NCBI RefSeq assembly: GCF_004135645.1
Contig: NZ_SDPW01000001.1
Span: 2,604,001 to 2,668,000, forward strand
Direction: 5' to 3'
DNA from: Senegalimassilia faecalis
GTDB taxonomy: Bacteria > Actinomycetota > Coriobacteriia > Coriobacteriales > Eggerthellaceae
DNA length: 64,000 bases
Below the pieces are notes generated by a model. That model saw only the letters and a list, made by a program, of their open reading frames with translations, was not told the DNA's origin and searched no databases. Shown here in pieces: positions 2,973-61,375 of this stretch. A program made the position numbers and the translations under genes. Each line of letters begins with the position of its first letter. Within the stretch, counting starts at the first letter, position 1.

Positions 2973-3551
2973 ATGGGATGTAAGGTTGCTCTAGGAGAGT
3001 TGTGCTCTTTCGCTAAAGGCGCAAGTGTCCCGCGTGTACGAATGCTTGACGAGGGGGGCTACCTCTACATCCATTACGGCGATTTGTATCGTGGATTTAG
3101 CATTCGAATAGATGTTGATGATTCGCAGAAGCCTATTCCGTATATCAGCAAAGACGAAAAAACTAGACCCACGCAGTGGCTTGAGGACAAAGATATTGTG
3201 TATGTCCTTACATCTGAGACTGTTGAGGATCTCGGGCACGCTTTCCTATTTAACAATCCAGGAGGAAAGAAGGCTGTTGCAGGGACAGAAACAACCATTG
3301 TACGAGTTACTAGGCGGGATCTTCTTTTGCCTGAGTATCTTAATTGGCTGCTGCAGTCGAACCATTTTAAGCGTGTCCTTAAGCAATATGTTAAGGGGAT
3401 GAAGGTGTTCCGCGTTCATCCTAATGATTTGGCTCGTATCGAAATAGACCTACCGTCACTCGACAATCAGCGTCGAGTTGTGGCGGTGATGGACTCGCTA
3501 TTTGACCGAGAGCTGCTCAACAATCGGATAAATGGCTATTTAGCTGCGTGA
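2973..3551 (+). CDS. hsdS: Half HsdS: single target-recognition domain ending in the recombination site
   Basis: This 192-residue ORF carries one HsdS target-recognition domain (VALGELCSFAKGASVPRV ...) and the start of the central conserved helix. It ends LLNNRINGYLAA just after the repeat at 3525-3546. A normal HsdS has two such domains and about 390-420 residues, so this is only the N-terminal half. GGAGG at 2961-2965 precedes the ATG at good spacing, and the gene is in line with hsdR-hsdM-rhuM. The frame across the repeat (ING-YL) is the same as inside the complete hsdS at 4191-4205. Inverting 3535-4198 would therefore fuse this half to the second half of that gene. In the present orientation it is probably the OFF copy. 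Confidence 0.85.
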   Translation: MGCKVALGELCSFAKGASVPRVRMLDEGGYLYIHYGDLYRGFSIRIDVDDSQKPIPYISKDEKTRPTQWLEDKDIVYVLTSETVEDLGHAFLFNNPGGKKAVAGTETTIVRVTRRDLLLPEYLNWLLQSNHFKRVLKQYVKGMKVFRVHPNDLARIEIDLPSLDNQRRVVAVMDSLFDRELLNNRINGYLAA

Positions 3552-4689
3552 GGTCTACTTTCGAAACGTCGATTTCACCCGACATGAGTTTGGGGAGAAG
3601 AGCGTCACGGAGAGCGGCAAGCTTACGATTTTCTCGTTTATTGCAATCGATCTGTTTGAAAGCTGTTCCAATTTGAGCGGCAATTTCATTCCCGCATTCA
3701 TCCGAAGGTACTAGTACAGCAATTTGCTCAAGGTCTACTGGTCTAATCGACGGAATGGTTGAAGTGCTTGTTTCGGCAAGCTGTTGGAGCGTCTTGGTAA
3801 TTCTCGCATCTGTAAGTGCGAGGTAGACAAGCGGGGACATGATCGTATCGTTTGGTCGTATTACTGCGAAAGCTGTAGAGGCCAACATATGCGGCACCGG
3901 ACCGTACAGCAATCCATAATGGTTTTGATTGGGCCTAACGGTTGAGTAGAGAATGTCACCGTCGGAGACCTTGCGACGAGCTCTGGCTGGAAGCTTTTCT
4001 TCGGCGAGATTGAAGTGCTGAAGCCCTGCCAGATCGTTTAGCATAAGGGCGCTGGTATCAATGTAGCTTACAGCACTCCAGTTTTCTTTAGGCGAATACG
4101 TTTCCGGATTGAATTCTGCTAAATCGCGCAGCGCGGCACTATCTGCATGTTCTTGCATTGCGTTCACATACATGGCGCGTGCCAGTTCTTCTAAATAGCC
4201 ATTTAGCTTAGCGTTCATTTCGATTTTTGCCTGAATAGGAGCCAATATCGATGCGATATTTCGCTGCGCCATTTCGCTGTTTGACGGGATGGCGTAGCTC
4301 ATGATCGCCGATTTATCACCTCGGGGCATTTTCGTGCCCTTTGAAGTTGCCATGACATAATCGAAAAATGCATCATCGCATAGAAGCCAGTAGAGGTAAT
4401 CAGCGCTGCAGCGCTGGCTTGGCTGGAATACCAACACGTCATTCGAGCAGTATCCGTCAATATCGGCCTTCCAGATTTTCTTGAAGTATGGCCTAATGTT
4501 TGAAACCAACGTGTCGCCTTTGCGGAAGCAGGATACTTTCCCTTCGCTCGGAACAGATGCCGTCTTTGAAACACCGCCGCGATTTGGCCCCATGCTTTCG
4601 GTAGAAACATACAGGTCTTCGGCCGTGATTGATGCGGCGCTGGCTTTCTCGTTCCGGTACGAGCAAATCGTTTCGAGAGATTCTGTCAT
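3517..4689 (-). CDS. hsdS: Type I restriction specificity subunit, complete, in expressed orientation
   Basis: A 390-residue specificity subunit with two target-recognition domains, about residues 1-155 and 185-360. They are separated by the conserved spacer that reads KIEMNAKLNGYLEELARAM, and a second conserved region LLPKLMSGEIDVSKVDL lies at the C-terminus. The spacer repeat (4191-4205) and the C-terminal repeat (3525-3546) are copies of the same recombination site. The last codons overlap the convergent half hsdS at 2973-3551, so the site is coding on both strands. The start codon overlaps the recombinase stop by four bases, so specificity subunit and recombinase are one transcription unit on the minus strand. 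Confidence 0.92.
   Translation of the reverse strand: MTESLETICSYRNEKASAASITAEDLYVSTESMGPNRGGVSKTASVPSEGKVSCFRKGDTLVSNIRPYFKKIWKADIDGYCSNDVLVFQPSQRCSADYLYWLLCDDAFFDYVMATSKGTKMPRGDKSAIMSYAIPSNSEMAQRNIASILAPIQAKIEMNAKLNGYLEELARAMYVNAMQEHADSAALRDLAEFNPETYSPKENWSAVSYIDTSALMLNDLAGLQHFNLAEEKLPARARRKVSDGDILYSTVRPNQNHYGLLYGPVPHMLASTAFAVIRPNDTIMSPLVYLALTDARITKTLQQLAETSTSTIPSIRPVDLEQIAVLVPSDECGNEIAAQIGTAFKQIDCNKRENRKLAALRDALLPKLMSGEIDVSKVDLTQLNSHLSDC
3525..3546. repeat. hsdS recombination site 1
   Basis: This 22-bp sequence recurs perfectly as the reverse complement at 7173-7194. The core AAATGGCTATTT is an imperfect dyad (AAATRGCYATTT), as expected for a tyrosine-recombinase crossover site. It codes INGYLA for the half hsdS on the plus strand and LNSHLS for the complete hsdS on the minus strand. 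About 65 bp downstream of it is also repeated, diverged, after site 3. Confidence 0.85.
4191..4205. repeat. hsdS recombination site 2
   Basis: CTAAATAGCCATTTA, the reverse complement of the site 1 core, lies at the joint between the two halves of the complete hsdS and codes LNGYL. It is inverted relative to site 1, so recombination between the two flips 3.5-4.2 kb and swaps the C-terminal specificity domain between the two hsdS genes. Confidence 0.85.
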
Positions 4690-5642
4690 TCCAAGTACCT
4701 TCTGTGCGAAGCCTTCACGTTGTTTTGGTTCACCATGGCGTAGTGCATAGTGGTTTCTATTTTCGCATGGCCAAGCAGCTTTTGCACTTGTTCGATTGGC
4801 ATTCCCTTATCAATGGCATGGGTCGCCAGCGTGCGACGAAATTTATGCGGGTGAACGCAATGAACGCCCGACGCTCTGCCGAGATTGCGCAACCTTAGTT
4901 CTACGGCACCTACCGTAATACGCCGACCCGATGGACCGAGCGAAACAAAAAGCGCCGAACTTGCATCAGCGCGGCTTGCAAGATACTCGACAAGATGCAG
5001 TTTGGCACGTGCATCAAAGTAAACGGGACGCTGTTTATTTCCCTTTCCCGTCACCAGGCACTCTCGCTCGTGGAAGTTGATGTCCCCTTTATTAAGGCGA
5101 ACAAGCTCGCCAACACGCATGCCCGTCGATGCCAGCAAATCAACAATAGCAAGATCTCGTTTAGACTCGCAGGCGCCCCTAAGGGCCTCAAGTTCCTCAT
5201 CACTAAAAACTTCTCTGGTAACTTGCGCGGTCTTGACTCGGCGAATACGACGCACGGGGCTCTTCACAATATAATCCTCGTCCTCCAACCACGAAAAGAA
5301 ACTCGACATGATACGCCTAATATTATCGATAGTTACCTTACTGGTGTGACGCGTGACCTCATAATCGTTGAGGTACCGCCGCAGGTCATCACTTACCATC
5401 ACGCCAATGGGCTTTCCGATTGCCGCTAACGCACGAGTAAGCGTATCTTCGTAATATCGAAGGGTACTGAGCGAGCAGCCTTCGACCTCCTTGGCTGTCA
5501 AAAACGTCTGTAACAGCGTTTTGTTCGCCTCCTGCTGCTTAGGCTCAAACGCGTGTTTCAATGCATCCCTCAGCCGTTTCAGCTGGCTCGACTTCAAGAA
5601 TGGTTGCATCTCTAAAAGAATCGAATCAATAGCAGCTTCCAT
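4686..5642 (-). CDS. Tyrosine recombinase, likely hsdS-shuffling invertase
   Basis: A 318-residue site-specific recombinase of the phage integrase family. The N-terminal SAM-like core-binding domain lies around residues 40-125. The catalytic domain follows, with R176 (TGMRVGEL), K200 (GKGNKQRP), H266 and R269 (PHKFRR), H292 (LLGHAKIE) and Y301, so the active site is complete. It is encoded directly upstream of, and overlapping, the complete hsdS. Four copies of a near-palindromic site lie within 2.6 kb. Family knowledge: tyrosine recombinases linked to multi-hsdS type I loci invert specificity domains. An element integrase is the alternative, but no attachment site or tRNA is visible. Confidence 0.9.
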   Translation of the reverse strand: MEAAIDSILLEMQPFLKSSQLKRLRDALKHAFEPKQQEANKTLLQTFLTAKEVEGCSLSTLRYYEDTLTRALAAIGKPIGVMVSDDLRRYLNDYEVTRHTSKVTIDNIRRIMSSFFSWLEDEDYIVKSPVRRIRRVKTAQVTREVFSDEELEALRGACESKRDLAIVDLLASTGMRVGELVRLNKGDINFHERECLVTGKGNKQRPVYFDARAKLHLVEYLASRADASSALFVSLGPSGRRITVGAVELRLRNLGRASGVHCVHPHKFRRTLATHAIDKGMPIEQVQKLLGHAKIETTMHYAMVNQNNVKASHRRYLE

Positions 5643-41502: not shown

Positions 41503-41729
41503 GCACGATTTCGGACTTACCGAATCCCCGAACAATCGCGCGCGAATTTTCGGCACGATTTCGAACTTTCCGAGCTTCTCAACTTGCTCATGCGAACTTT
41601 TTGGGCAGGAAGTTGTACTTTCCGAATCTGACAACATCGAATCGAGTGGATCAAGGCCCGGAAAGTTCAATTTCCTGCCATTTTCAGCTTCCCCGATGTA
41701 TCTACCCCCGGAAAGTTCGGTTTCGTGCC
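41503..41729. repeat. Five-copy array of a 24-bp repeat, three direct and two inverted (array 1)
   Basis: Copies at 41503-41526, 41553-41576 and 41605-41628 read GGCA(C/G)GA...ACTT(T/A)CCGA. Copies at 41657-41680 and 41706-41729 are the reverse complement. Start-to-start spacing is 50, 52, 52 and 49 bp. A second array with the same architecture but different core bases lies at 47829-48048. Confidence 0.75.
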
Positions 41730-42238
41730 ATTTGCACGAAACCGCCGGCGCACTCCGACGCCCGCGCGTTCTCGCGTTGCGCTTCCGTGCGCATACGAAA
41801 AACGCCGGTGTGCTCCCGCGCTCCCGCTCCCGCGCTCTTGCACAAACGCCGGCGCTCCCGCTCCCGCGCACCCGCGCCCGCACGCAAAACGCCGGCGCCC
41901 CTCCCACACACTGTGCCCGCGCCCTCTCCCAAAACGAAGGCGAGACGGGGTTTGTGCCCCGTCCCGCCTTTCTGCGTCCCGATATCTCAACAGGCTGCCT
42001 TTGTGGGCGCGCCCGCTGTCGGTTGGTTTTTGGATGCCGCCCGCGCCTTCTGGTTGCGGCCGGCATCCGATTGCTGGCCGCTTTGCCAGCTTTGCGGCCC
42101 ATTGGTGGCGGGCCATCGAGCTGGTCGGCATCCGCCGTGCCGCCTGCTCGCAGCTTGCGCGCTGCTTGCAGGCGCGGGCCTGCAGCTCGTCGGCTTACGG
42201 TTGCGCGACCTGGGGCCGCGCAACCAACCGCAAACTAC
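41730..42238. other. Low-complexity intergenic stretch
   Basis: A C-rich region with repeated AAACGCCGG and GCTCCCGC words (41799-41935) and a GGCGAGACGGGG / CCCCGTCCCGCC stem near 41939-41965. GGTTGCGC / GCGCAACC at 42199-42225 may be the 3' stem of the formate dehydrogenase transcript. No gene is recognised. Confidence 0.45.
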
Positions 42239-47828: not shown

Positions 47829-48048
47829 GGCAAGAAAAAGGCCTTTCTGTATGTGCACGTGCCTCAAGGGGTGCTCAATGGCAAGAATTGGGGATTCCTG
47901 TAGCCGGCGCGCTCCCTACACGGCTCGAATTGGCAAGAATCCGGTGTTTCTGTATCAAGAAGGGGGGTTTGCGCCTACAGAAAGCCCAGATTCTTGCCAC
48001 GTGGCCGCTGAATTGTGCATGAAGATACAGAAATGGCAGATTCTTGCC
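47829..48048. repeat. Five-copy array of a 24-bp repeat, three direct and two inverted (array 2)
   Basis: Direct copies at 47829-47852, 47880-47903 and 47932-47955 read GGCAAGAA...TTTCTGTA. Inverted copies lie at 47975-47998 and 48025-48048. Spacing is 51, 52, 43 and 50 bp. The pattern matches array 1 exactly in number, length and orientation. The rest of 47177-48421 holds no convincing gene: 47177-47480 should carry the formate dehydrogenase promoter, and 48100-48421 is a GC-rich stretch with open but improbable frames. Confidence 0.75.
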
Positions 48049-48421
48049 ATTGCGCAGGACGGGGAGGACCATTGCAAGATAAGAAGTCGGTTCCCAAGGG
48101 GGTCAAGGCGCCGCCGCCTTGACTGCAGCCTCGTAACGCTCGCAAGCCATGCGTCGCCACCTGCCGCGCAAATCGAGCCCCCTCGCGGGTCGCGCGTCTG
48201 CGCGCCGTCGCCCGCGCGCCCGCCCAACCGCCTGGGTTGTAGTCGAGTCGCAATACCGTCCCACATTGCCCAGGCTGCGACCGAACCGCAGCATCACGCG
48301 CCCGGTCGCCCGGCCCGCGGGGGCTCGCGCCGTCGCCCGGCCCGCAAGTCCCGCAAGTCCCGTCGCTCGCGTCCGCCTGGTCGCCCGGCCTGCGGGCCGC
48401 ACCCAGCTCGTGGGCCGCCCT

Positions 48422-51400
48422 CTAGCGCCCGTACCTCTTCACGGCGTCGATGAGTGCTCGCATGTCGAGCGGCTTGGACAGGTGCGCGTTCATGCCGGCG
48501 GCCTTTGTGCGCTCGCGGTCTTCGTCGAACGCGTTCGCGGTCATGGCGATGATGGGCACGCTTGCCGCATCCGCGCGGTCAAGCGCGCGGATGGCGCGCG
48601 TGGCCTCAAGCCCGTCCATCACGGGCATCATCAGGTCCATCAGCACCAGCGAGATCGATCCCGGCGCCGACTTCTCGAACGCGGCCACCGCTTCCTTGCC
48701 GTTCCACGCCTTCATCACCACGGCGCCGGCGGCGTCGAGGTAGTATTCCGCAATCTCCATGTTCAGGTCGTTGTCCTCAACCAGCAGCACGCGCTTGCCT
48801 TCAAGCGACGCCATGTCCTGTGCCTTGTCCGACCCCGGGCCCTGTGCTTCGCCAGCGTCGTCGATGGTAAACGTCAGCCAGAACGTGATGGTGGTGCCCA
48901 CGCCCTGCTGGCTTTGCACGTCGATGGTGCCTCCCAAGGCATCTACCAGCGACTTCACGATGGACATGCCCAAGCCCGTGCCGCGATAGTGCGTGCGCGC
49001 GCCCAGCTCCTCTTGCGTGAACGGCTTGAACAGCTGCTGGTCCATGAACTGCTGGCTCATGCCGATGCCCGTGTCCTCGATTTTGAACTCAAAGCGCGCC
49101 ACGCCGCCCGTGCAGCCAAGCTCGGTGGCGTACGTGTTCACCGACCCGCCGGGCTTGTTGTACTTGATGGCGTTGCTGAACAGGTTGAGCATAATCTGCC
49201 GCAGCCGCAGGTCGCTGCCAATAAGGTGCGCGTGGCGAATGTTCACGTGATAGCTGCGGTGCGCAATGTTGCTTTCCTGCAGTTGCGCGTCCACCAACGA
49301 CCGCACATCGGCCATCAGCGCTTCCAAATCGAAGCGCACCTGCTCAAGCACCATCTGCCCCGAGCTGAGCTTGCTCATATCCAGCACGTCGTTGACCAGG
49401 TCGAACAAGTGGTTTGCGGACAGCTGGATTTTCTCCAGGCACTCGCGGGTTTTCTCGGGGTCCTGGTTGCTCATACGGATGATTTCCAGCATGCCCAAGA
49501 TGCCGTTGATGGGCGTGCGGAAGTCGTGGCTCATGCGGTTCATGAACTCGGTTTTCGCCTTGTTCTCCGAGTCGACGGTTTCGAGCGCCTGCTCAAGCCG
49601 CTGTTTCTCCTCTTCCTCGTGCTGGTGGAACGCCGAGGTGTTCTTGAGCAGGATGATGCCGCGCACCACGGGCCGGTCGCGCTGCGTTTCGGCGTCGTAG
49701 GCGGTGTCGCGCGACATGAGCACGCTTTTCTGCAGCCACATGGTTTGGCCGCCCTTCGTGCGCTCGCGGTACTCGATGGTCACCTCGCTGGCGCCGGCTT
49801 CGAAGCGCTTCAACAGCTTCTCGGACGTGTCGATCAGCCGGTAGCTTTGCGCCGTGTCGTCGGCGATAAGCTTCGAGCGGCGTCGGCAGTACGCGTCGTA
49901 GGAGCACGGCGGCTCGATGCCCAGGTCAAAGCGCTCTTCGGACGGCTGCGTGAACGCGCGCTCCAGCTCGTCGTCCGTCAGGTTCACCGAATAGGCCGTC
50001 TGCGCGGACTCTAGCAACGCGTCCACGTAGTGCGCGTTTTCCATGAACGACTGCTTCATCTGGTCGTAGTAGCGCGACAGCTGCTGCTTTTCCGTGGACT
50101 CGATGCTGTGGAACGGCTCGAACCCCACGACGAAGTGGTGCAGCGCGCCGCTTTCGCCGTCAAGGAACACCACGGTCAGCCGGCCGTGGTGCGTGTTCAG
50201 GTGATAGGGGGCGGTAAGCGTCGGCGTTTGCTCGCCCAGCGTTTGGCGAAGGTGCTCAAGCTGCAGAAGCTCGCGCAGCCGCGTCCGGTCGTTGTCGGCG
50301 GCCAGCTCGGCCGCAATCTGCACCGCCGCGCCCGTGTAGTTGCCGCTGTCGGCTAAAAACGCGTCCGACGAGGCGCGCAGCACGCGGTACTGGTCAAGCA
50401 GCGCGTCGCAGTACAGGCAATCGGAGAAACGGTAGCCCATGCTCTCGATGCGCTTGAGCGTCAGGCGGTCGTGCTGCTGCATCTCGGCGGCCTCAGCGCG
50501 CTTGGCCCGGTTCTTGTCGATGTACATATTCTTGTCGGCCTCGCGTAACAGCTCGCGCAGCGTAGGCGTGCCGAAATCGCTTGACAGCGCCCAGCCAGCG
50601 GCGTAGCTGATGGGCATGGCGGGGTTGGCCTGGGAATACTCCGCGCACAGTGCGCGCAACTTCGCCAGCTGCGCTTCTACGTCGGCATGGCTGGCGTTTT
50701 GCATCACGGCGATGAACTCGTCGCCGCCGTCGCGGCCCACGAAGCACGCCGGCCCCGCAATCTTGGCCAGCTGTTCGGCGAACGAGCGGATGTAGGCGTC
50801 GCCGGCCTCGTGCCCTAAGTTGTTGTTGATGGTGCGCAGGTTGTTCAGGTCGAACATGCACATGGCCACGGGCGCGTCGGGCGAGGTGGGCGTTTCCCGC
50901 CTCAGGATTTCCTCGCATTTGTTCTTGTTCGGCAGACCCGTGGCCTCGTCCAGGTACACCTTTTTTTGCAGCGCGCGGTTTTGCGCGGCTGTGCGGATGG
51001 CGCGCGCCAGTTCGATGGCCATGAGCGCGATAAGCCCGGCGATCACGGCGAACACCACGTTTTCCAGCTGGTTGAGCGCGGTGGCCCTTTCTTGCGAGTA
51101 TTCCTCGGCCAGTTTCGTGGTCGTGTCGCAGATACCGAAGAACTCCTCGCTTTTCGCGATGATGTCGGTATTTTCGTAGCCTACGTCGCGTACGCGGTTG
51201 ATTTCGTCGCGCAGCGTGGAGAAGTACGCGGCCAACTCGGTCATTTTCGCCTGGTACTCGTCGTCGTTCAGGCTGACCAGGTTCAGCTCGTCGCTGCCGA
51301 AACGCAGCCCGTTGATGTAAGAGTCCACGGCCTCAAGCAGCTTGTCCTGGGGCTGACCTGCGTCTTCAAGCTTCACGATACGCTGCGTGGTACCGCGCAC

Positions 51401-51550
51401 CAGGCCGGCGTAGTTCACCACGCGCGCGGTGCCCTGGATGTCGGCCACCAACGACAGGATGTTGAAGAACAGCACGATAAGCACGACGGTAAGCGCCGTC
51501 ATAAGAATGTGGATGATGCGGTTGCCGTTTTTAGCGGCGGGCTTAGACAT
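48422..51550 (-). CDS. Hybrid sensor histidine kinase with GGDEF domain and receiver
   Basis: A 1042-residue membrane signalling protein. Helix 1 (about 12-37), a PilJ/NIT-type periplasmic helical sensor (38-160) and helix 2 (164-184) are followed by a GGDEF domain with an intact GRDGGDEF near 272. A long PAS-like region follows (about 370-640). Next come a coiled coil, HisKA (MSHDFRTPINGILGM, phospho-His), HATPase (NLFSNAIKYN, DTGIGM, GTGLGMSI) and a C-terminal receiver with the phospho-acceptor Asp in VLMDLMMPVMDG. Diguanylate cyclase and phosphorelay functions in one chain is an unusual combination. It is divergent from the NusG-like gene at 52333, and the putative invertible promoter lies between them. 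Confidence 0.9.
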   Translation of the reverse strand: MSKPAAKNGNRIIHILMTALTVVLIVLFFNILSLVADIQGTARVVNYAGLVRGTTQRIVKLEDAGQPQDKLLEAVDSYINGLRFGSDELNLVSLNDDEYQAKMTELAAYFSTLRDEINRVRDVGYENTDIIAKSEEFFGICDTTTKLAEEYSQERATALNQLENVVFAVIAGLIALMAIELARAIRTAAQNRALQKKVYLDEATGLPNKNKCEEILRRETPTSPDAPVAMCMFDLNNLRTINNNLGHEAGDAYIRSFAEQLAKIAGPACFVGRDGGDEFIAVMQNASHADVEAQLAKLRALCAEYSQANPAMPISYAAGWALSSDFGTPTLRELLREADKNMYIDKNRAKRAEAAEMQQHDRLTLKRIESMGYRFSDCLYCDALLDQYRVLRASSDAFLADSGNYTGAAVQIAAELAADNDRTRLRELLQLEHLRQTLGEQTPTLTAPYHLNTHHGRLTVVFLDGESGALHHFVVGFEPFHSIESTEKQQLSRYYDQMKQSFMENAHYVDALLESAQTAYSVNLTDDELERAFTQPSEERFDLGIEPPCSYDAYCRRRSKLIADDTAQSYRLIDTSEKLLKRFEAGASEVTIEYRERTKGGQTMWLQKSVLMSRDTAYDAETQRDRPVVRGIILLKNTSAFHQHEEEEKQRLEQALETVDSENKAKTEFMNRMSHDFRTPINGILGMLEIIRMSNQDPEKTRECLEKIQLSANHLFDLVNDVLDMSKLSSGQMVLEQVRFDLEALMADVRSLVDAQLQESNIAHRSYHVNIRHAHLIGSDLRLRQIMLNLFSNAIKYNKPGGSVNTYATELGCTGGVARFEFKIEDTGIGMSQQFMDQQLFKPFTQEELGARTHYRGTGLGMSIVKSLVDALGGTIDVQSQQGVGTTITFWLTFTIDDAGEAQGPGSDKAQDMASLEGKRVLLVEDNDLNMEIAEYYLDAAGAVVMKAWNGKEAVAAFEKSAPGSISLVLMDLMMPVMDGLEATRAIRALDRADAASVPIIAMTANAFDEDRERTKAAGMNAHLSKPLDMRALIDAVKRYGR

Positions 51551-52104: not shown

Positions 52105-52243
52105 GCAGAAAAGTACACTTTTTTGCCACTGGGTTATGAATTGCAAGATTCGCGTAATGAACGCTAACCGACCTGCGGTTATGCAAAAATCGATGTGTAT
52201 AATGGGGCTAATTTCGAAGTGGCAAAAAAGCGTACTTTTCTGC
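52105..52243. repeat. 26-bp inverted repeat pair flanking an 87-bp segment with promoter (possible inverton)
   Basis: The left arm 52105-52130 (GCAGAAAAGTAC ... TTGCCACT) and right arm 52218-52243 are reverse complements with a single mismatch. The segment between holds a TATAAT box. The arms also resemble the 24-bp repeat family at 41.5 and 47.8 kb (GGCAA ... TTTTCTG). They sit between the divergent hybrid kinase gene and a NusG-family gene. Confidence 0.7.
52198..52203 (+). promoter_or_regulatory. TATAAT -10 element inside the inverted-repeat segment
   Basis: A perfect TATAAT points rightward to the NusG-like gene at 52333. No good -35 hexamer lies 16-19 bases upstream (GCGGTT region), so an activator or alternative sigma factor may be needed. 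Confidence 0.5.
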
Positions 52244-52332: not shown

Positions 52333-52956
52333 ATGGCGGCGGCACGGCGAGCAGCGCAAAACGCTAGTGGAAACGCGGCGCGCGCGCAGCGTCAGTCGGC
52401 AGCTGCGCCGTTTCCCGCCGGCCGCCGCGTGCCGAAGGGCACGCTGCGCTGGTATCCCGTGCGTGTGCCGGAAGGCCGCGAGGCCGCTGCCGCCGAGCGC
52501 CTGCGCAAGCTGGCGTCGGCGGGCGCGCTCGACGACGCCGTCGTCGTGTCGCGCGAGCGCTGGTTCAAGCGCGCCGGCGTGTGGAGCGTGCAAACGCAGC
52601 CGCTGTACCGCGGCTACGTGTTCGTCGTGTCGCGCGACGCGGCGGCGCTCGGGCGCGAGCTGGATCGCCTGGGGCTGCACGGCGACGCGCGGCAGGAGGG
52701 CGGCCGCCCGGTGCCGCTGGCCGACGACGTGCGGCAGTGGATCGTCGCGTCCATGGACGGCGCGGGCGTGCTGCGCGCCAGCGAGGGCGTCATCGAGGGC
52801 GGCAGCCTGCGCGTGACGAAAGGCCCGCTTGCCGGCCAAGAGGCGCGCGTGGCCAAGGTCGACCGGCATCGCCGCGTGTGCGAGGTGCGCGTGGGCCGCG
52901 AAGGCGGGCGCGACGTGGTGGAGCGTATGGCGCTCAACGTGCCGGAGAAAAGCTAG
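52333..52956 (+). CDS. NusG-family antitermination protein (LoaP/UpxY-like), first copy
   Basis: A 207-residue specialised NusG paralog. The start ATG 52333 follows AAAGGAAGGCGGC. After a 38-residue Ala/Arg-rich extension comes the NGN domain (LRWYPVRVPEGREAAAAERLRKL ... PLYRGYVFVVS). A KOW-type segment (GGSLRVTKGPLAGQEARVAKVDRHRRVCEVRV) ends the protein. Such paralogs bind RNA polymerase and let it read through terminators in long polysaccharide operons. Here it opens a decayed surface-polysaccharide region and is followed by a second NusG-like gene. The possible inverton lies directly upstream. Confidence 0.85.
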   Translation: MAAARRAAQNASGNAARAQRQSAAAPFPAGRRVPKGTLRWYPVRVPEGREAAAAERLRKLASAGALDDAVVVSRERWFKRAGVWSVQTQPLYRGYVFVVSRDAAALGRELDRLGLHGDARQEGGRPVPLADDVRQWIVASMDGAGVLRASEGVIEGGSLRVTKGPLAGQEARVAKVDRHRRVCEVRVGREGGRDVVERMALNVPEKS

Positions 52957-53165: not shown

Positions 53166-53294
53166 AGGAAACTGCAGTGTTTGGGTTATGAGGACCCGCA
53201 GGTGTAAAGCGATGCCGCGTTCGGCGTTCGTACAAGCCTGCGGGAATGAATGCGTTTTCGTTTCGCCATTCCTTGCGGGGGCAGGGGCGAAGCC

Positions 53295-53867
53295 GTGTCG
53301 AGAGGCGAAAGGCGGGTGCGGGCCGTGTGGTACGTGATCCAAGTGATGGCAGGCCGCGAGGAAGCGGTGGCCAAAAAGATCAAGCGCGCGGCCGCGGACT
53401 TCGCCGAAGAGCGCGGCATGGCGGCGGCCGACGTGCTGCAAGAGTGCTTCAGCCCGCGCTTCAAGACGAAGGTCCGCCAAGACGGCAAGTGGGTGGACAG
53501 CGAGCGTCCGCTGCTGCCGGGCTACCTGGTGGCCGTGACCGGCAGCGCCGCCGTGCTCGACACGGCGCTCAAGCGCGTGCCCGAGCTCACCCGGATCCTG
53601 GGAAACGACAACGCATTCATTCCGCTGAAAGACGACGAAGCCGCCTGGATCGACGCGTTCACGCGCAAGGGATACCGGGTGGTGGAGATGTCCGAGGGCT
53701 TCAAAGAAGGCGGCAAGGTGACCGTGACCTCCGGCCCGCTGGTGGGCTACGAGGGCGCCATCACCAAGATCGACCGCCGCAAGCACGAGGCATACCTGCA
53801 GCTTGAAATCATGGGAAGGAAAAAGGAAGTAAAGGTTGGCTTTAACCTCGTCAGAAAAGCACGATGA
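53295..53867 (+). CDS. NusG-family antitermination protein (LoaP-like), second copy
   Basis: A 190-residue NusG paralog with a clean NGN domain (WYVIQVMAGREEAVAKKIKRAA ... RPLLPGYLVAVTG) and a KOW domain (GGKVTVTSGPLVGYEGAITKIDRRKHEAYLQL). The GTG start at 53295 has GGGGCG upstream; GTG 53316 and ATG 53250 are alternatives. The protein is closer to the LoaP consensus than the first copy. It precedes the sugar-transferase pseudogene by 24 bases, the normal position for an antiterminator driving a capsule or exopolysaccharide operon. The operon it would serve is broken downstream. Confidence 0.9.
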   Translation: MSRGERRVRAVWYVIQVMAGREEAVAKKIKRAAADFAEERGMAAADVLQECFSPRFKTKVRQDGKWVDSERPLLPGYLVAVTGSAAVLDTALKRVPELTRILGNDNAFIPLKDDEAAWIDAFTRKGYRVVEMSEGFKEGGKVTVTSGPLVGYEGAITKIDRRKHEAYLQLEIMGRKKEVKVGFNLVRKAR

Positions 53868-53891: not shown

Positions 53892-54649
53892 GTGGCTAGC
53901 GAAGCTGTTGCAGCCAAGGCCGCCGAAGAGCGTGCCGAGCAGGCCGACGCGAAGGTGGTCGACTTCGAGTCCATCGCGCCGAAGAACGCCGCCGCGCGCA
54001 ACACCGTGCGAAGCGGCGCGGCGTGCGACCTTGACGCCCAGGAGCGCCGCCGCCAGGGCGTCGAGCGCGCAGGGCGGCTGCGCGAGGAGCTGGGCGAGGG
54101 GCCGGTGGCCGGCATCGAGGGCCGCCTGGCCTACCGCTTCGCCAAGCGCGCGTTCGACGTGGCGTTCTCGGCCGCGGTGCTGGTGGCGTTCTGCTGGCTG
54201 TTCGCGATCATCGCCGCGCTCATCAAGGCCGACGACCCGAAGGCCCCGGTGCTCTTCAAGCAGCGGCGCGTGGGCAAGGGCGGCGAGACGTTTCAGATGT
54301 ACAAGTTCCGCAGCATGTGCGTGGACGCCGAGGAGCGCCTGGCCGAGCTGCGCGAGCTCAACGAGAAGACCGGACCGGTGTTCAAGATGGCCGAGGACCC
54401 GCGCGTCACCCGCGTTGGCAGGTGGCTGCGCAGGCTCAGCCTCGACGAGCTGCCCCAGTTCATCAACGTGCTGGCCGGCGACATGTCCACGGTGGGCCCG
54501 CGCCCGGCGCTGCCCGCCGAGGTGGCGACCTACAACGACTACCAGCGCCAGCGCCTGCTGGTCAAGCCCGGCCTGACCTGCTACTGACAGACCCGTCGCA
54601 ACCGAGACTCTATCACCTTCGACGAGTGGGTCGACCTCGACCTGTGGGC
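53892..54649 (+). pseudogene. Undecaprenyl-phosphate sugar transferase, nonsense-mutated and truncated
   Basis: The ORF to 54587 encodes 231 residues of a bacterial sugar transferase that starts polysaccharide units on the lipid carrier. It has a membrane helix (AFSAAVLVAFCWLFAIIAAL) and the catalytic region KQRRVGKGGETFQMYKFRSM, DPRVTRVGRWLRRLSLDELPQ, MSTVGPRPALP. It stops at LVKPGLTCY, where TGA (54585-54587) replaces the Trp codon of the conserved LTCYWQ. In the same frame the sequence still reads QTRRNRDSITFDEWVDLDL before homology ends near 54649. So a point nonsense change and loss of the last ~30 residues have inactivated the gene. GTG start at 53892. Confidence 0.8.
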
Positions 54650-54689
54650 AGGAGCGCAATCCCGCGCTCCCTGACCCAGGGGAGGAAAC

Positions 54690-54785
54690 ATGCCCTCATC
54701 GCGAGGCTGCCGCAGCAGCTACGACTGCATTGTCAAGATCAAGGGCGTCACCACGCGCCCGATACTGTTCAGCCAGCTCATGTGA
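54690..54785 (+). CDS. Short ORF with strong ribosome site, 31 residues
   Basis: GGGGAGG precedes ATG 54690 and the product MPSSRGCRSSYDCIVKIKGV... ends at 54785. It lies directly after the sugar-transferase remnant and before another strong ribosome site (CGGGGAGGGGG, ATG 54804) whose frame runs open into the DUF6933-like gene. The peptide may be the start of a deleted gene. The region 54804-55091 between is AT-richer and unassigned. Confidence 0.35.
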   Translation: MPSSRGCRSSYDCIVKIKGVTTRPILFSQLM

Positions 54786-55091
54786 AGTGACGGGGAGGGG
54801 GTGATGAACCCCGAGGAGCTGTTCGCGGACGATCGCAGCCCCGCCTCCGAGCAGGAGCGCGTCCATGAGGATGAGCTGCATTTGTTAGCGTCAATGCAGT
54901 TTTCACCATTTGGGGATGCTGACTTTTTCCGTACGAAAGTGCTCATATCCTCTCCGCGATACCCGAACCGATTCGGTCCAACTATTTGTCCGCATCCCCT
55001 ACCTCAAAGTGCGCAAATATTTTTCGTTGCCCGAGCACCGGCAGATACCGCGTACAATTCGGTTAAAGGCAATTGCGGATGGGGAAGCATC

Positions 55092-55598
55092 ATGGAGATC
55101 GGATTGACTGAGGTCGTCAGGAAGATGGCGTCTGCCGGAACCCTGCCGGCCGCGCAGGAGGGCGAACTGCTCTTCTACTGGGACCTCGCGCGTGTCGATT
55201 TCGGGCAGCGCAAGCTGCTCGTCGCGTCGAATGCAGCCACGCGGCTGTGCGCCATCACCAGGATGGCCGCGGCCGACTGGAGGCATATCGACGAAGTAGC
55301 CCTCCGGCTCGTCGAGGATGCCGTCAGCTGCGCCGGCCTCGACGCCGCGCGCTACCTCGAGCTCGCAGGGGAGGCGCGCCTCAGCAAGACCCACGGCAGG
55401 CGGGCGCTGGGCTGCGTGAACGACCTGTCGCGCATGCTCGACCCCGCCCGCATCGACATGGCCGAGAAGCTGCAGTGGCGCGAGATGGAGCTGCTCAACT
55501 GCAAGCTCATATCCAAGTGCGCCGGTCACGAGGGCTACGGTGTCCCCGCCGAGCGCTTCGCCGAGGACCTGCGGGCGCTGATCGATCGCGTAGAATAG
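55092..55598 (+). CDS. DUF6933-like protein
   Basis: A 168-residue protein from ATG 55092. LFYWDLARVDFGQRKLLVASNAATRLCAITRMAAADW resembles the DUF6933 pattern, where a nucleic-acid-like strand with a short Val/Leu stretch is followed by helical DAVSCAGLDAARYLELAGEARLSKTHGRRALGCVNDL. The frame is open upstream to 54801, so a 265-residue form is possible, but that extension has different composition and looks like leftover DNA. It is followed 32 bases later by the membrane-protein/hydrolase pair. DUF6933 proteins are uncharacterised, and the defence setting here is only context. Confidence 0.6.
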   Translation: MEIGLTEVVRKMASAGTLPAAQEGELLFYWDLARVDFGQRKLLVASNAATRLCAITRMAAADWRHIDEVALRLVEDAVSCAGLDAARYLELAGEARLSKTHGRRALGCVNDLSRMLDPARIDMAEKLQWREMELLNCKLISKCAGHEGYGVPAERFAEDLRALIDRVE

Positions 55599-55630
55599 CG
55601 GCTACTTGTGAAGAAGGTGGACCAAAAGAC

Positions 55631-56326
55631 ATGAAAGAAGGCTATAGCGATGAATACAAGTGCACTTGTCTTGCTATTTCGCTGGTCGTCGTGTTGTTCT
55701 CGCCGAGGCTAGTGTCTGTCTTGAGCCTTTGGATGCCGCAGTCGGGGTCGCCGCTCGAATCGGTCGCCTGCTACGCTGCATTTCTGGCGCTGTCCTACGT
55801 CGTCGGGATTTTGGTTGAAAACACGATTCCCTATTCGATAAAGGACTGGCTTCTGTATCCCGAGATTTGCAGGTGGTCCTTGCAGCGTCCCGGGTGTACG
55901 ATTTTCACCGAGATCCAGAATGGGGAGCCCGGGGATTTCCGCTTTGACGTGAGCGAGGCTCGCAAGCGATACAGTGTTCAGATTCAAAACGCTCAGGGTA
56001 AGGATTCTCGCGAAGCCTCGCGGTATCAGAATGCTGAGTGGTACAAGCTCTATCGAAAGCACAGTTCAAGCGCTTCGGTCAGGTCGAACAACTTGGGGCA
56101 TCTGTACAGCCGCGATGCTTTCGCGCTCGGCTTTTCAACGTTTTTACTATCCGTTGTATGCAATGTGGCGGGCATGGTGCTTTGCGGGGAGGCCCTTGTT
56201 TCATTAACGTCCCTTGCGATAGTGGGGGTATTTGCGGCGGCAAGTTGGCTTTCTGCCCGTTGGAAGGCTAAGCGTCTCGTAACGACGGTCATCGCTTGCG
56301 ATATCGCAAGCGATGGGAGGGAGTGA
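55631..56326 (+). CDS. Unknown membrane protein, partner of the downstream metallo-hydrolase
   Basis: A 231-residue protein with two helices near the N-terminus (CLAISLVVVLFSPRLVSVL; SVACYAAFLALSYVVGILV), a soluble middle of about 85 residues (DWLLYPEICRWS ... YRKHSSSASVRSNN), and two helices near the C-terminus (ALGFSTFLLSVVCNVAGMVL; VSLTSLAIVGVFAAASWLS). No family is recognised. It ends two bases before the start of the metallo-hydrolase gene, so the two are coupled. A helix-pair/soluble/helix-pair layout resembles membrane effectors of several defence systems, but this is inference. Confidence 0.65.
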   Translation: MKEGYSDEYKCTCLAISLVVVLFSPRLVSVLSLWMPQSGSPLESVACYAAFLALSYVVGILVENTIPYSIKDWLLYPEICRWSLQRPGCTIFTEIQNGEPGDFRFDVSEARKRYSVQIQNAQGKDSREASRYQNAEWYKLYRKHSSSASVRSNNLGHLYSRDAFALGFSTFLLSVVCNVAGMVLCGEALVSLTSLAIVGVFAAASWLSARWKAKRLVTTVIACDIASDGRE

Positions 56327-56328
56327 AC

Positions 56329-57225
56329 ATGGGCAGCGTAATCAAGTCGTTCTCAGTGGGGAATGGCGACACCTGCTACATAAAGCATGGCAGCGACAAC
56401 TTCAGCATCATCGACTGCAACTTGGTCGATGGTCGCAAGGAGGAAATCGTCGACGAGCTTGAAAGGGAATCCAGAGAAAAGGCCATCACGAGGTTCATCT
56501 CGACCCATCCGGACGAGGATCATATTCACGGGCTGCCTTACCTCGATGATCGATTGCGGATAGTGAACTTCTACTGCGTGAAAAACGAGGCGACGGAAGC
56601 CGAAGAGACGGAGTCGTTCAGGAGGTATTGCGAGCTCAGGGATTCCGACAAGGCGTTCTACTTGACCGAAGGGTGCTCTCGTCGCTGGATGAACCGAGAC
56701 GACGACGAGAAGAAGTACGGCAGCTCTGGAATCAATATTTTATGGCCGAAGCCAGGGAATGCGCATTTCAAGGAGGCTCTCAAAAAAGCCTCCGAAGGGT
56801 CGTCTCCGAACAACATCTCGCCGATCGTGACCTATTCGCTTGAGAACGGGGTAAGAGCTGTTTGGATGGGCGATTTGGAGAGCGACTTCATGTCCAAGAT
56901 CGAGGATGATGTCGCGCTGAAGCCCTTCGACATCCTCTTTGCTCCTCATCACGGTCGCTCGTCTGGCAGGCCTCCGAAAAGCTGGATGGAGAAGATGGAT
57001 CCGGGGCTTGTCGTAATCGGCGAAGCGGATAGCGACGTGCTCGACTACTACAGGGGCTATGTCCACATATGCCAGAACACCGCAAAAGACATAGCCTTCC
57101 AATGTGAGGCTGGCTATGTCCACGTGTATGCGGAGAACCCATATGCTATTGATGGGCTGGATGATCTAGGCAGGGGACCTTTCATGGACCTGAGCTATGT
57201 TGGAAGCTTGAGAACGAAGGGATGA
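56329..57225 (+). CDS. Metallo-beta-lactamase-fold hydrolase (ComEC/Rec2-like)
   Basis: A 298-residue enzyme. ATG 56329 follows GGGAGGGAG. SVGNGDTCYIKHG and FSIIDCN open the fold. The metal-binding motif THPDEDHIHG (H60, D62, D64, H65) is complete, and a later GVRAVWMGDLESDFM and FAPHHGRSSG supply further ligands, as in the ComEC/Rec2 C-terminal nuclease-like group. It has no membrane helices of its own. The stop-to-start distance of two bases to the upstream membrane protein argues for a joint function. Phosphodiesterase or nuclease activity is likely from the family. Neighbouring Abi genes suggest anti-phage defence. Confidence 0.8.
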   Translation: MGSVIKSFSVGNGDTCYIKHGSDNFSIIDCNLVDGRKEEIVDELERESREKAITRFISTHPDEDHIHGLPYLDDRLRIVNFYCVKNEATEAEETESFRRYCELRDSDKAFYLTEGCSRRWMNRDDDEKKYGSSGINILWPKPGNAHFKEALKKASEGSSPNNISPIVTYSLENGVRAVWMGDLESDFMSKIEDDVALKPFDILFAPHHGRSSGRPPKSWMEKMDPGLVVIGEADSDVLDYYRGYVHICQNTAKDIAFQCEAGYVHVYAENPYAIDGLDDLGRGPFMDLSYVGSLRTKG

Positions 57226-57288
57226 CCCGCCTTTGCCGCGCCAAGGGCAGTATGGAACATTTCACGCTCGAGGAACGGTTTGCTGTTT

Positions 57289-58200
57289 TCAGGGTTGACC
57301 GGTTTTCTCTTCCCGCCGGACCCTGTTCGCCACCGAGAGCATGAAGTCCGCGACGTTGGCCGCAGCGTTCACGGCGAGGCGGGCATGGTAATCCTCGATT
57401 CTGACTCTTGCCGCGCCGACTCCGTGCGCGTCACCCTGTTTGTTCCTCATCTGCCCGATGGAATCGACTATCTTGTTGAGGCCGTTGACGAGGTCGCAGA
57501 TGCGGCGATCCATGGTTGCGTCGGCGTGGATGTTGTAGAGCTTCTTGGCTTGCGCGAACAGTTTTCCCATATCGCCGCTGGTCGAGGGAATCTCTCCTTT
57601 GCGCTCTATGACCTGGCAGAAGGTCTCTTCGAGCAGCGTCCTCGCTTTGGTGAGGGCGCTGTCGCAATCGCCTTGCTCGATGTCGCGGTGGGCTCTGTCC
57701 GCCATATCCTTTATGTAGGGGCGGTCGATGACCTTGATGGAAGGGGTGTCCATCGTTGGCGAGGCGTCTATCGGGGAAACTGCATATGCGTTTCCGATCC
57801 GCCTCAACTCGTGACGCCCGAAAATAAGCTCGCCGTTGATAGCCTCGATCGCGGCTTCGACAATAGCCTCGTGCCGACGTTCGATTTCGTCTGCGCTGAA
57901 CCCTTGAAGGTCGTCGCGAAAGCGGGAGAGGTCGAAGAAACAGGCAAACATGTCCGAGACCCTGTCGTTGGCGATGCAGTGGTCGAGCAGCTTCTCAACG
58001 TATTGCCAACGGCTGCATCCCCCGTAATCGCTGGGTTTGCCGAAGGCGTTCAGGGTTTGTACGAGTTTCGGTCCCGACTGGTAAGGCAGGCTGACTTCTT
58101 CGTCGAGCTTACTGGATTTGAAATGCGTGTCCCCATCGAGAATCTCGTAGATGCTTTTTACCCTTAAAAAAGAAAAGGGACTGTTGCTCATTTCCGGCAT
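57289..58200 (-). CDS. Abortive infection protein with Abi_C domain
   Basis: A 303-residue protein with an N-terminal unassigned region and a C-terminal Abi_C-type domain: DCDSALTKARTLLEETFCQVIERKGE, GKLFAQAKKLYNIHAD, and QMRNKQGDAHGVGAAR with the HEPN-like R..H pattern, followed by AVNAAANVADFMLSVANRV. GAGG lies upstream of ATG 58200. It is convergent with the metallo-hydrolase gene. Family members halt phage growth, in several cases through HEPN RNase activity, and the R-x6-H spacing here matches that subgroup. The trigger is unknown. Confidence 0.82.
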   Translation of the reverse strand: MPEMSNSPFSFLRVKSIYEILDGDTHFKSSKLDEEVSLPYQSGPKLVQTLNAFGKPSDYGGCSRWQYVEKLLDHCIANDRVSDMFACFFDLSRFRDDLQGFSADEIERRHEAIVEAAIEAINGELIFGRHELRRIGNAYAVSPIDASPTMDTPSIKVIDRPYIKDMADRAHRDIEQGDCDSALTKARTLLEETFCQVIERKGEIPSTSGDMGKLFAQAKKLYNIHADATMDRRICDLVNGLNKIVDSIGQMRNKQGDAHGVGAARVRIEDYHARLAVNAAANVADFMLSVANRVRREEKTGQP

Positions 58201-58382
58201 GGAATATTCCTCTCATGCGGCCCAATGCGATGAGACGATTCTATCAGACTGCTTCTTGCAGCGTTCGAGCTTGTGTAGCTGAACTGGAGTATGGAATCCG
58301 TTGCGTGCACCTTGCTTAGGCTTGTCTGTTGTTCCACTATCGGGGGGCATGGTCCTGAAGTAGCGAGGTATCGTTCCTAGAT

Positions 58383-58418
58383 AAAAAACTAGGCGGAACC
58401 GCTTTCGCAACTCCGCCT
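58383..58418 (-). terminator. Terminator of the Abi_2 gene
   Basis: On the minus strand AGGCGGA ... TCCGCCT (58412-58418 with 58391-58397) is followed by a T-rich run (58383-58388), 41 bases beyond the Abi_2 stop. The gap 58201-58458 has no gene. Confidence 0.75.
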
Positions 58419-58458
58419 TACAAAACCTGTGGGTTTTTTTATCTGAATCCATTATGCC

Positions 58459-59424
58459 TTACCGGAACCAGTTGTCAATCAGCTTCGCCAAAAAAGCCAC
58501 AGTCGACCGGACGACGTCATTGGCGGGCGCAAAGTCGCTCATTTCGAGCAGCCTCTTCTCGAGGCCCGCTAGATTCGATGCCGCGTTTTTCTTTCCGGAC
58601 CCCTCGGGCACCAGCTGCGCATGCAGGTACATCAACGTGGTGATCTGCCTGATGCGGGGGTTCTTCATCTTGGCCGTCCTGACGCGGTGCGACAGCCCGG
58701 CCTCCGCCAAGGCCCTCGTGACGGCCGCGTCGGCGCCGATCCTAGCGTCGACGACGGCGACGCCGTTCAGGACGTCGGACGAGTGGGCGCAGGCGTTCCT
58801 CACGGACTTCGCCTGGCGCAGCATGTAGTGCTCGTGGACCATCTCCCGGTCGCCCCAGCGCTCGGCGCAGAAGAGGTAGAGGTCTATGAAGCTCCCAAAC
58901 GAGAAGAGCTCCATGAGGACCCAGATGGGCATTTCGGCCGGGCCGCCGCCGTACTTCCTGACGAGGTCGCCGCAGAACAGGTCGTTGCCCATCATGTTGA
59001 CCTCGCCCTCGCGGCGCCGGCGCTCGTTGTGGTTGAGGCCCGCCATGTAGTCGCGCGAGAGGGCGTAGCCGTCCTCGCCATCGCGCTCGGTCGCGATCCG
59101 CACCAGCTTCGTGCGCGCCGCGTGCTCCACGTCGAGCGTCAGCGGCAGCAGCGCGTAGCGCAGGTCGCGGTCGAGCGAGGCGAGCGCCCTCAGGTGGCCG
59201 AAGTCGAGGTCGATGTACTGGCCGTCGCGCGGCCCGCCGACGCGCTTCTCGAAGAGGGAGCGGTACGCGGCGACCTTGAAGAAGTAGGTTCGCTCGGAGA
59301 GGTACTCGGCGGCGTCCTCCTCGGAGCACAGCTCGAACGTGACGCCCTTCGACTTGAGGTGCTCGATCTGCTGCTCGACCGTGAGCAGGGGCTTGTGGTC
59401 TTTGATCAGGACAGTCTCCTCCAT
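58459..59424 (-). CDS. Abi_2 (AbiD/AbiF-like) abortive infection protein
   Basis: A 321-residue protein with AAAGGAGG upstream of its ATG. It starts with LLTVEQQIEHLKSKGVTF and YLSERTYFFKVAAYRSLF, the N-terminal pattern of Abi_2 proteins, then FGHLRALASLDRDLRYALLPLTLDVEHAARTKLV. The HEPN RNase motif R209-N-A-C-A-H214 (VRNACAHSS) is intact. Family knowledge: such proteins, related to Cas13-type HEPN domains, cleave RNA during phage infection. The C-terminal part is helical. It forms a same-strand cluster with the Abi_C gene. Confidence 0.88.
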   Translation of the reverse strand: MEETVLIKDHKPLLTVEQQIEHLKSKGVTFELCSEEDAAEYLSERTYFFKVAAYRSLFEKRVGGPRDGQYIDLDFGHLRALASLDRDLRYALLPLTLDVEHAARTKLVRIATERDGEDGYALSRDYMAGLNHNERRRREGEVNMMGNDLFCGDLVRKYGGGPAEMPIWVLMELFSFGSFIDLYLFCAERWGDREMVHEHYMLRQAKSVRNACAHSSDVLNGVAVVDARIGADAAVTRALAEAGLSHRVRTAKMKNPRIRQITTLMYLHAQLVPEGSGKKNAASNLAGLEKRLLEMSDFAPANDVVRSTVAFLAKLIDNWFR

Positions 59425-59622
59425 ACGGGCCTCCTTTTGGTTTTGGCGCTCGCTTGATTATACAGGCGCCGCATACCTTCATCTCATCTCGGCAGTTTGC
59501 GCGGCCGATTTGCCGGGCGCGCGAGTCGTCGACCCTGTTAGCTCGGCAGGGCCGGAATCGCCCCTGGTTTTCCGTCCGCGCCCTTGGGAGCGGGCGGTGC
59601 GATTCGAGGTGGCGCGCTCCCC

Positions 59623-59832
59623 TCAGTCGTCGAACGGCACGCGCAGCTCGAAGACGACCTGCCCCAGGAACGTGTGCACGAGGCCGTTGGGCGTCACGCA
59701 CATGTCGGAGCAGTACCACCTCATCTCGCGCTTGAACTCCGGCTCCATCTTCACCACCATGCCGGTGGGGACGCCGGTCTTGGCGGGTGCCTCCTTGTCG
59801 ATGCCGCACCGCTTCGCCAGGCCGTCGCTCAT
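59623..59832 (-). CDS. Short hypothetical ORF, possibly a fragment
   Basis: A 69-residue ORF (MSDGLAKRCGIDKEAPAKTG ... FLGQVVFELRVPFDD) with GGGGCGGGC upstream. The composition looks protein-like. Directly upstream, eight bases away, begins the duplicated rmlB fragment, so its promoter region has been replaced. No family is recognised. It may be a leftover of the deleted polysaccharide operon. Confidence 0.35.
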   Translation of the reverse strand: MSDGLAKRCGIDKEAPAKTGVPTGMVVKMEPEFKREMRWYCSDMCVTPNGLVHTFLGQVVFELRVPFDD

Positions 59833-59840
59833 GCCCGCCC

Positions 59841-60024
59841 CGGCCACGACCGCCGCTACGCCATCGACTCCACCAAGCTGCAGACGGAGCTCGGCTGGCG
59901 CCCGATGCACAACGACTTCGCCGAGGGGCTTCGAGCCACTATCGAGTGGTACCGCGAAAACGAGGCCTGGTGGCGCCCGGCCAAGGTGGCCACCGAGGCA
60001 AGGTATAAGGCACAGGGGCGGTAG
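59841..60024 (+). pseudogene. rmlB 3' fragment (partial duplication)
   Basis: The stretch codes [21 protein letters not shown] ... FAEGLRATIEWYRENEAWWRPAKVATEARYKAQGR, nearly the last 60 residues of the dTDP-glucose 4,6-dehydratase at 60356-61375 but with several substitutions. It has no start codon and is cut off abruptly on the left. It marks loss of an upstream rmlB copy by deletion or recombination. Confidence 0.85.

Positions 60025-60292: not shown

Positions 60293-61375
<1,083 letters not shown>

Follow-up and report, generated by a model that had tools for sequence, protein, structure and literature searches.

A probable invertible promoter ahead of a NusG/LoaP-type capsule operon in Senegalimassilia faecalis, and related site pairs in the Coriobacteriia

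Bacteroides is the textbook case of capsule switching by small promoter inversions ahead of genes for NusG-type antiterminators, and a dyad arranged around a 2-bp core is the layout of the crossover sites of small serine recombinases, such as the Hin and Gin sites. UpxY genes of the Bacteroidota are enriched beside invertons (PMC11892184, PMC8748976), and a survey of the defined community hCom2 gave a median of 14 invertons per genome for its Actinobacteriota (PMC11892184). A preprint on Eggerthella lenta (PMC13174815, 2026) described escape from phage by reversible capsule inversions on the megabase scale, which involve LoaP and occur at a 16-bp repeat, GATAAGCGCGGTTATG; the recombinase was not found, and these inversions were contrasted there with promoter inversions. 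The crossover-site family analysed below, its serine recombinases and its link to LoaP are not described in the main texts of the inverton surveys, and a literature search confined to openly accessible articles without their supplements retrieved no paper on this switch family.

The analysed stretch of the Senegalimassilia faecalis genome (the window; 64,000 nucleotides, contig NZ_SDPW01000001.1, positions 2,604,001 to 2,668,000) contains at 52105–52243 two 26-bp arms in inverted orientation, which are identical at 25 of 26 positions and are separated by 87 nt. The left arm, GCAGAAAAGTACACTTTTTTGCCACT (52105–52130, forward strand), consists of an imperfect dyad, GCAGAAAAGT-AC-ACTTTTTTGC, at 52105–52126, whose halves agree in 9 of 10 positions, followed by a CACT shared by both arms. 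The right arm, AGTGGCAAAAAAGCGTACTTTTCTGC (52218–52243, reverse strand), is the inverted copy of this site and reads GCAGAAAAGT-AC-GCTTTTTTGC in the same sense. The asymmetric 2-bp core AC at the dyad centre of the left site (52115–52116, forward strand), where strand exchange would take place, is matched by GT at 52232–52233 in the reverse-strand arm, and the sole mismatch between the arms, at 52231, adjoins this core and lies outside it. The locus thus has two inverted dyad sites with an identical core, as expected for a serine invertase.

No second pair of this kind and no further copy of the arm sequence occur in the 2.75-Mb genome, throughout which the best match of either arm is the opposite arm. 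A 25-bp arm searched against the window found the two arms only (shuffles: 0.00), and when the surrounding 720 bp were shuffled 100 times (first-order), the best inverted repeats had 15–20 matches in 26, compared with the 25 observed. Coordinates and shuffles therefore agree with the initial annotation, which had described arms of this length and identity around 87 bp with a TATAAT box directed at a NusG-like gene. It had also called the arms much better conserved than the other members of a 24-bp repeat family that they resemble; this resemblance is faint: the closest non-arm sequence in the window (41707, reverse strand) has 8 mismatches in 26 and the next one has 9. At 41552–41736 and 47872–48056, genes are preceded by several imperfect repeats that measure about 24 bp and are of the type TGGCA..AA....TTTC; they differ in detail from the arms and are candidate regulator sites.

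The 87-bp inner part of the segment (52131–52217, forward strand) has a G + C content of 43%, compared with 60% in the window. It carries the promoter box TGTATAATGG (52196–52205, forward strand; TATAAT at 52198–52203), which is directed at the NusG-like gene, so that a promoter, judged as such by its sequence, lies between inverted repeats ahead of a gene, as in invertons; by this reading the segment is presently in the ON orientation. From the start of the box to the end of the arm motif this unit measures 43–44 nt in all ten places where it was found. The TATAAT box lacks a convincing -35 hexamer upstream and was not reported by a consensus promoter scan; an activator may therefore be needed. 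A central element, CTGCGGTT (52173–52180, forward strand), recurs inside related segments (L110, L111, L116, L118, and L080) and is possibly an enhancer or activator site. Apart from the promoter box and the arms, the inner segment gave no significant alignment to the segments of other loci.

The first gene under the putative switch encodes a NusG-like regulator of 207 amino acids (52333–52956, forward strand) and is followed by a second NusG-like gene (53250–53867, forward strand). Both reading frames are open, and both products score higher with the LoaP profile NF033641 (79.4 and 143.6 bits; NCBIfam cut-off 125) than with the UpxY profile NF033644 (25.1 and 46.4 bits; cut-off 100): the second is a LoaP above the cut-off, the first is LoaP-like and below it, and neither reaches the UpxY cut-off. 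The next gene, for a priming sugar transferase (53892–54587, forward strand), covers only positions 1–134 of the 179 of PF02397 and looks truncated, whereas the sugar transferases of the relatives are of full length; the intact operon of the relatives comprises one or more NusG-like genes, the priming sugar transferase, glycosyltransferases, and Wzy or EpsG. Downstream of the transferase gene, which ends near 54587, are genes for DUF6933, Abi_C (57289–58200, reverse strand), and Abi_2 (58459–59424, reverse strand). An intact rmlB (60320–61375), a dTDP-sugar gene resuming the series near 60.3 kb, is preceded by a duplicate of part of its 3' end (59860–60022). The region 53892–60020 looks like a defence insert within a capsule operon, and the switch in this strain may control a damaged operon whose output may be lost. 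Another NusG paralogue of the same genome (L089, G000:C1:2518472-2518972) is not accompanied by a site pair.

On the other side of the segment lies a divergent hybrid kinase gene (48422–51550), which the initial annotation had regarded as the target of the box in the opposite orientation. This is unlikely, as the kinase has a promoter-like site of its own (CTGACT-16-TATAAT, 51639–51612, reverse strand) and the upstream gene in the relatives usually encodes a recombinase; the flipped state would therefore simply be OFF.

Searching genome contigs with the NusG-like protein gave Collinsella tanakaei An368 as the sole match, and a plasmid search gave none. In C. tanakaei An368 (L007), a serine recombinase gene (3096–3710) is followed by inverted sites around a TATAAT-type box and by a NusG-like gene, whose product is 47% identical to that of the window. 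The same kind of site pair was observed upstream of NusG-like homologs (scores above about 120 bits) across the order, in Eggerthellaceae and Collinsella. In the family of the window the paired sites follow the consensus AAAAnG(T/C)A(C/G)ACnTTTT, and no further sites of this consensus occurred beyond the pair in the 6–14 kb read per locus. The part conserved across the sites of the relatives is the dyad core, excluding the TGGCA flank. Paired sites share one core, either AC or AG, at all loci examined including those of the relatives, although some loci are near-copies and the independent cases are fewer than the locus count. The spacings of the pairs cluster around integer multiples of the 10.5-bp helical turn, to which no weight is given since other periods fit equally well.

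Across 395 genomes of the order, a pattern search blind to gene content retrieved 20 site pairs, spread over 17 of the genomes, compared with no pair for the reversed pattern. Thirteen of the 20 pairs directly precede a NusG-like gene, most of them with a serine recombinase gene on the far side and the same strand, whereas several pairs without a NusG-like gene lie near genes for secreted or membrane proteins (L092, L096, L100, L103, and L104, mostly beside a recombinase gene); the switch family seems to serve surface proteins also. The strict site pair was not found in the searched genomes of Eggerthella (G054–G057), a genus included in the GTDB family compared. In the congener G002, one site identical to the genus consensus is located exactly at a contig end (L005, G002:C70, 1–25), as would be expected of an assembly that breaks at an inverted repeat; it adjoins a different gene from that of the window and possibly marks a second invertible locus in the genus. 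Runs of 12–13 G between recombinase gene and site pair, upstream of the left site, were noted at two loci (L074 and L084) and are possible slippage tracts.

Opposite orientations of homologous segments were observed between unchanged flanks. The genomes of G238 and C. tanakaei An368 (G324) are collinear on both sides of the site pair (88% identity over 1219 bp and 93% over 838 bp) and their recombinases are 98% identical, whereas the 143-bp segment including the arms is 93% identical only when reversed. The inner segments of three further groups are flipped as well (L079 versus L077/L078, L088 versus L086/L087, and L074 versus L084/L085), with z values of 9–17 for the reverse alignment and about 0 for the direct one. 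As these segments belong to different genomes, the comparisons record inversion at the arms over evolution and not within one culture. The TGTATAATGG-arm unit points toward the NusG gene in the window and in G238, whereas the units of C. tanakaei, G071, two loci of G137, and three loci of G314 point away from that gene; only one orientation is known for the present strain. With site pairs, adjacent serine recombinases, and both orientations in the relatives, the earlier proposal of an invertible promoter ahead of a NusG-family gene, which follows the UpxY-like logic of Bacteroides, is strongly supported.

The recombinase genes of the relatives lie just upstream of the sites on the same strand, and their products are 60–73% identical to that of Collinsella. 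Such adjacent genes were found in the family of the window (two each in G137 and G071, and one each in G030, G013, G068, G070, G022, and G041) and in other families (G237, G238, G243, and G298). The genome of S. faecalis encodes two PF00239 proteins, one large and one small. Unlike the adjacent gene of most relatives, the gene of the small serine recombinase (G000:C1:2194554-2195138) is located 461 kb from the arms, and neither a recombinase gene nor a remnant of one occurs between the hybrid kinase gene and the left arm; as its genome's only small serine recombinase, this enzyme would therefore act in trans. It reads as intact, scores 104.8 bits with PF00239, aligns to the Sin, gamma-delta, and Gin chains, and has a resolvase-type catalytic domain with the active-site serine (YARVS) and a C-terminal helix-turn-helix-like region. 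Maximum-likelihood analysis placed the enzymes of AC sites apart from those of AG sites, a split that needs two changes on a tree with some moderately supported branches, compared with a mean of eight in shuffled assignments, none of 200 being as low. The S. faecalis enzyme grouped on the AC side (support 80/84) as sister (100/100) to the enzyme of G002, which is equally orphan and whose genome carries a matching site. From the adjacency in the relatives and the matching tree we infer that the small serine recombinase acts on these sites. The initial annotation had instead suggested trying, among others, the recombinase at 4686–5642 (reverse strand); this enzyme is of the tyrosine type and was rejected, its gene adjoining, as read from the sequence, an HsdS-like specificity gene (3517–4689, reverse strand). 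The pair at 3517–5642 probably serves to shuffle the specificity of a type I restriction system.

We are thus highly confident in reading 52105–52243 as an inverton that is switched in trans by the small serine recombinase and drives a NusG/LoaP capsule operon. For this strain we infer inversion itself, the identity of the recombinase, transcription, and the capsule phenotype. The recombinase, encoded 461 kb away, would pair the dyad sites in inverted orientation, cut both at the common AC core, and flip the segment. In the ON state, transcription from the TGTATAATGG promoter would cross the right arm and continue into the NusG/LoaP-like gene, the second LoaP gene, and the priming sugar transferase gene, which would form the start of a capsule or exopolysaccharide operon, and the antiterminator would keep the polymerase going along this long operon. 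In the OFF state the promoter would be directed away and the operon would be silent.

Other explanations of the inverted arms have to be weighed against this inverton. The locus could be a relic, a once-switching promoter now locked ON after loss of the local recombinase and breakage of the capsule operon, as the interval between kinase and left arm, free of any recombinase gene or remnant, and the Abi-type genes behind the truncated sugar transferase would suggest. We regard this as unlikely, because the arms (one mismatch in 24) are more alike than those of any relative examined, an intact AC-type recombinase is still encoded in the genome, and both NusG-like frames are open. Far less probable is that the arms are an inverted pair of operators for a transcription factor, for example an Eggerthellaceae LuxR-type regulator, and do not invert at all. 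Further repeats of the TGGCA..TTTC type do occur upstream of genes in the window, and LuxR-type regulators are common in Eggerthella according to the main text of PMC9734109, in which no arm-like motif is given for the LuxR regulators of E. lenta; however, the homologous segments in both orientations between collinear flanks largely refute this reading for the family, a serine recombinase repeatedly adjoins the site pairs, and the conservation resides in the dyad core and not in the TGGCA flank.

The complementary 26-nt arms could also pair as an RNA hairpin or transcription terminator in a transcript begun upstream of both. This is most improbable, since the promoter box is enclosed by the two arms and its transcript would carry one arm only, and the flipped relatives show recombination of the DNA. 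The short length, the terminal inverted repeats, and the deviating base composition are also features of a MITE or transposon remnant, an origin that hardly deserves credence for an element that is present as a single copy in the genome, has no evident target-site duplication, and keeps its place ahead of NusG genes in different genera.

Among the described systems, the putative inverton at 52105–52243 shares with Mpi and UpxY of Bacteroides the short invertible promoter, the NusG paralog heading a capsule operon, the serine recombinase, and the possibility of action in trans. It differs from them in being actinobacterial, in having LoaP-like rather than UpxY proteins, its own site AAAAnGTA[C/G]ACnTTTT, and a TATAAT-type box; moreover, the recombinases of the relatives usually lie beside each locus and score far below the cut-off of the Mpi profile NF009949 (272 bits; 41.4 for the S. 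faecalis enzyme and 52.7 for that of C. tanakaei). The predicted switch would work like the Mpi/UpxY capsule switches, yet by curated cut-offs its proteins fall outside the Mpi and UpxY families. With Hin/Gin and their hix/gix sites it has in common a small serine recombinase, a dyad site of about 22–26 bp with a 2-bp core, and inversion as the outcome of inverted sites, although in sequence the recombinase resembles Sin and gamma-delta resolvase more closely than Gin and the segments measure only about 100–140 bp. The length agrees with PhaseFinder-type invertons, which are intergenic invertible segments of about 100–200 bp. Family, capsule clusters, LoaP, and reversible inversion are shared with the E. 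lenta capsule inversions, but those are of megabase scale with GATAAGCGCGGTTATG, and the present system is not described in PMC13174815.

Very probably, then, the locus turns a capsule on and off as in Bacteroides, with other parts and in another phylum. On a wider scale, it appears likely that serine-recombinase promoter switches with AC or AG sites and co-diverged enzymes control LoaP-like capsule antiterminators and some surface proteins throughout the order in the Coriobacteriia, that they arose convergently, and that the orphan recombinase of the genus acts in trans. That gut Actinobacteria show this logic with another family of antiterminators, another recombinase clade, and another site suggests that it was assembled convergently, and a general principle may be that the promoter of the antiterminator is flipped rather than that of each operon gene. 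Since capsule switching lets E. lenta escape phage (PMC13174815), the small switches are candidates for roles in the escape from phage and the interaction with the host of other Coriobacteriia. With the site consensus, such switches can be read out directly from long-read and metagenomic data that already exist and, if the proposed reading is true, gut Coriobacteriia would have capsule variation like that of Bacteroides.
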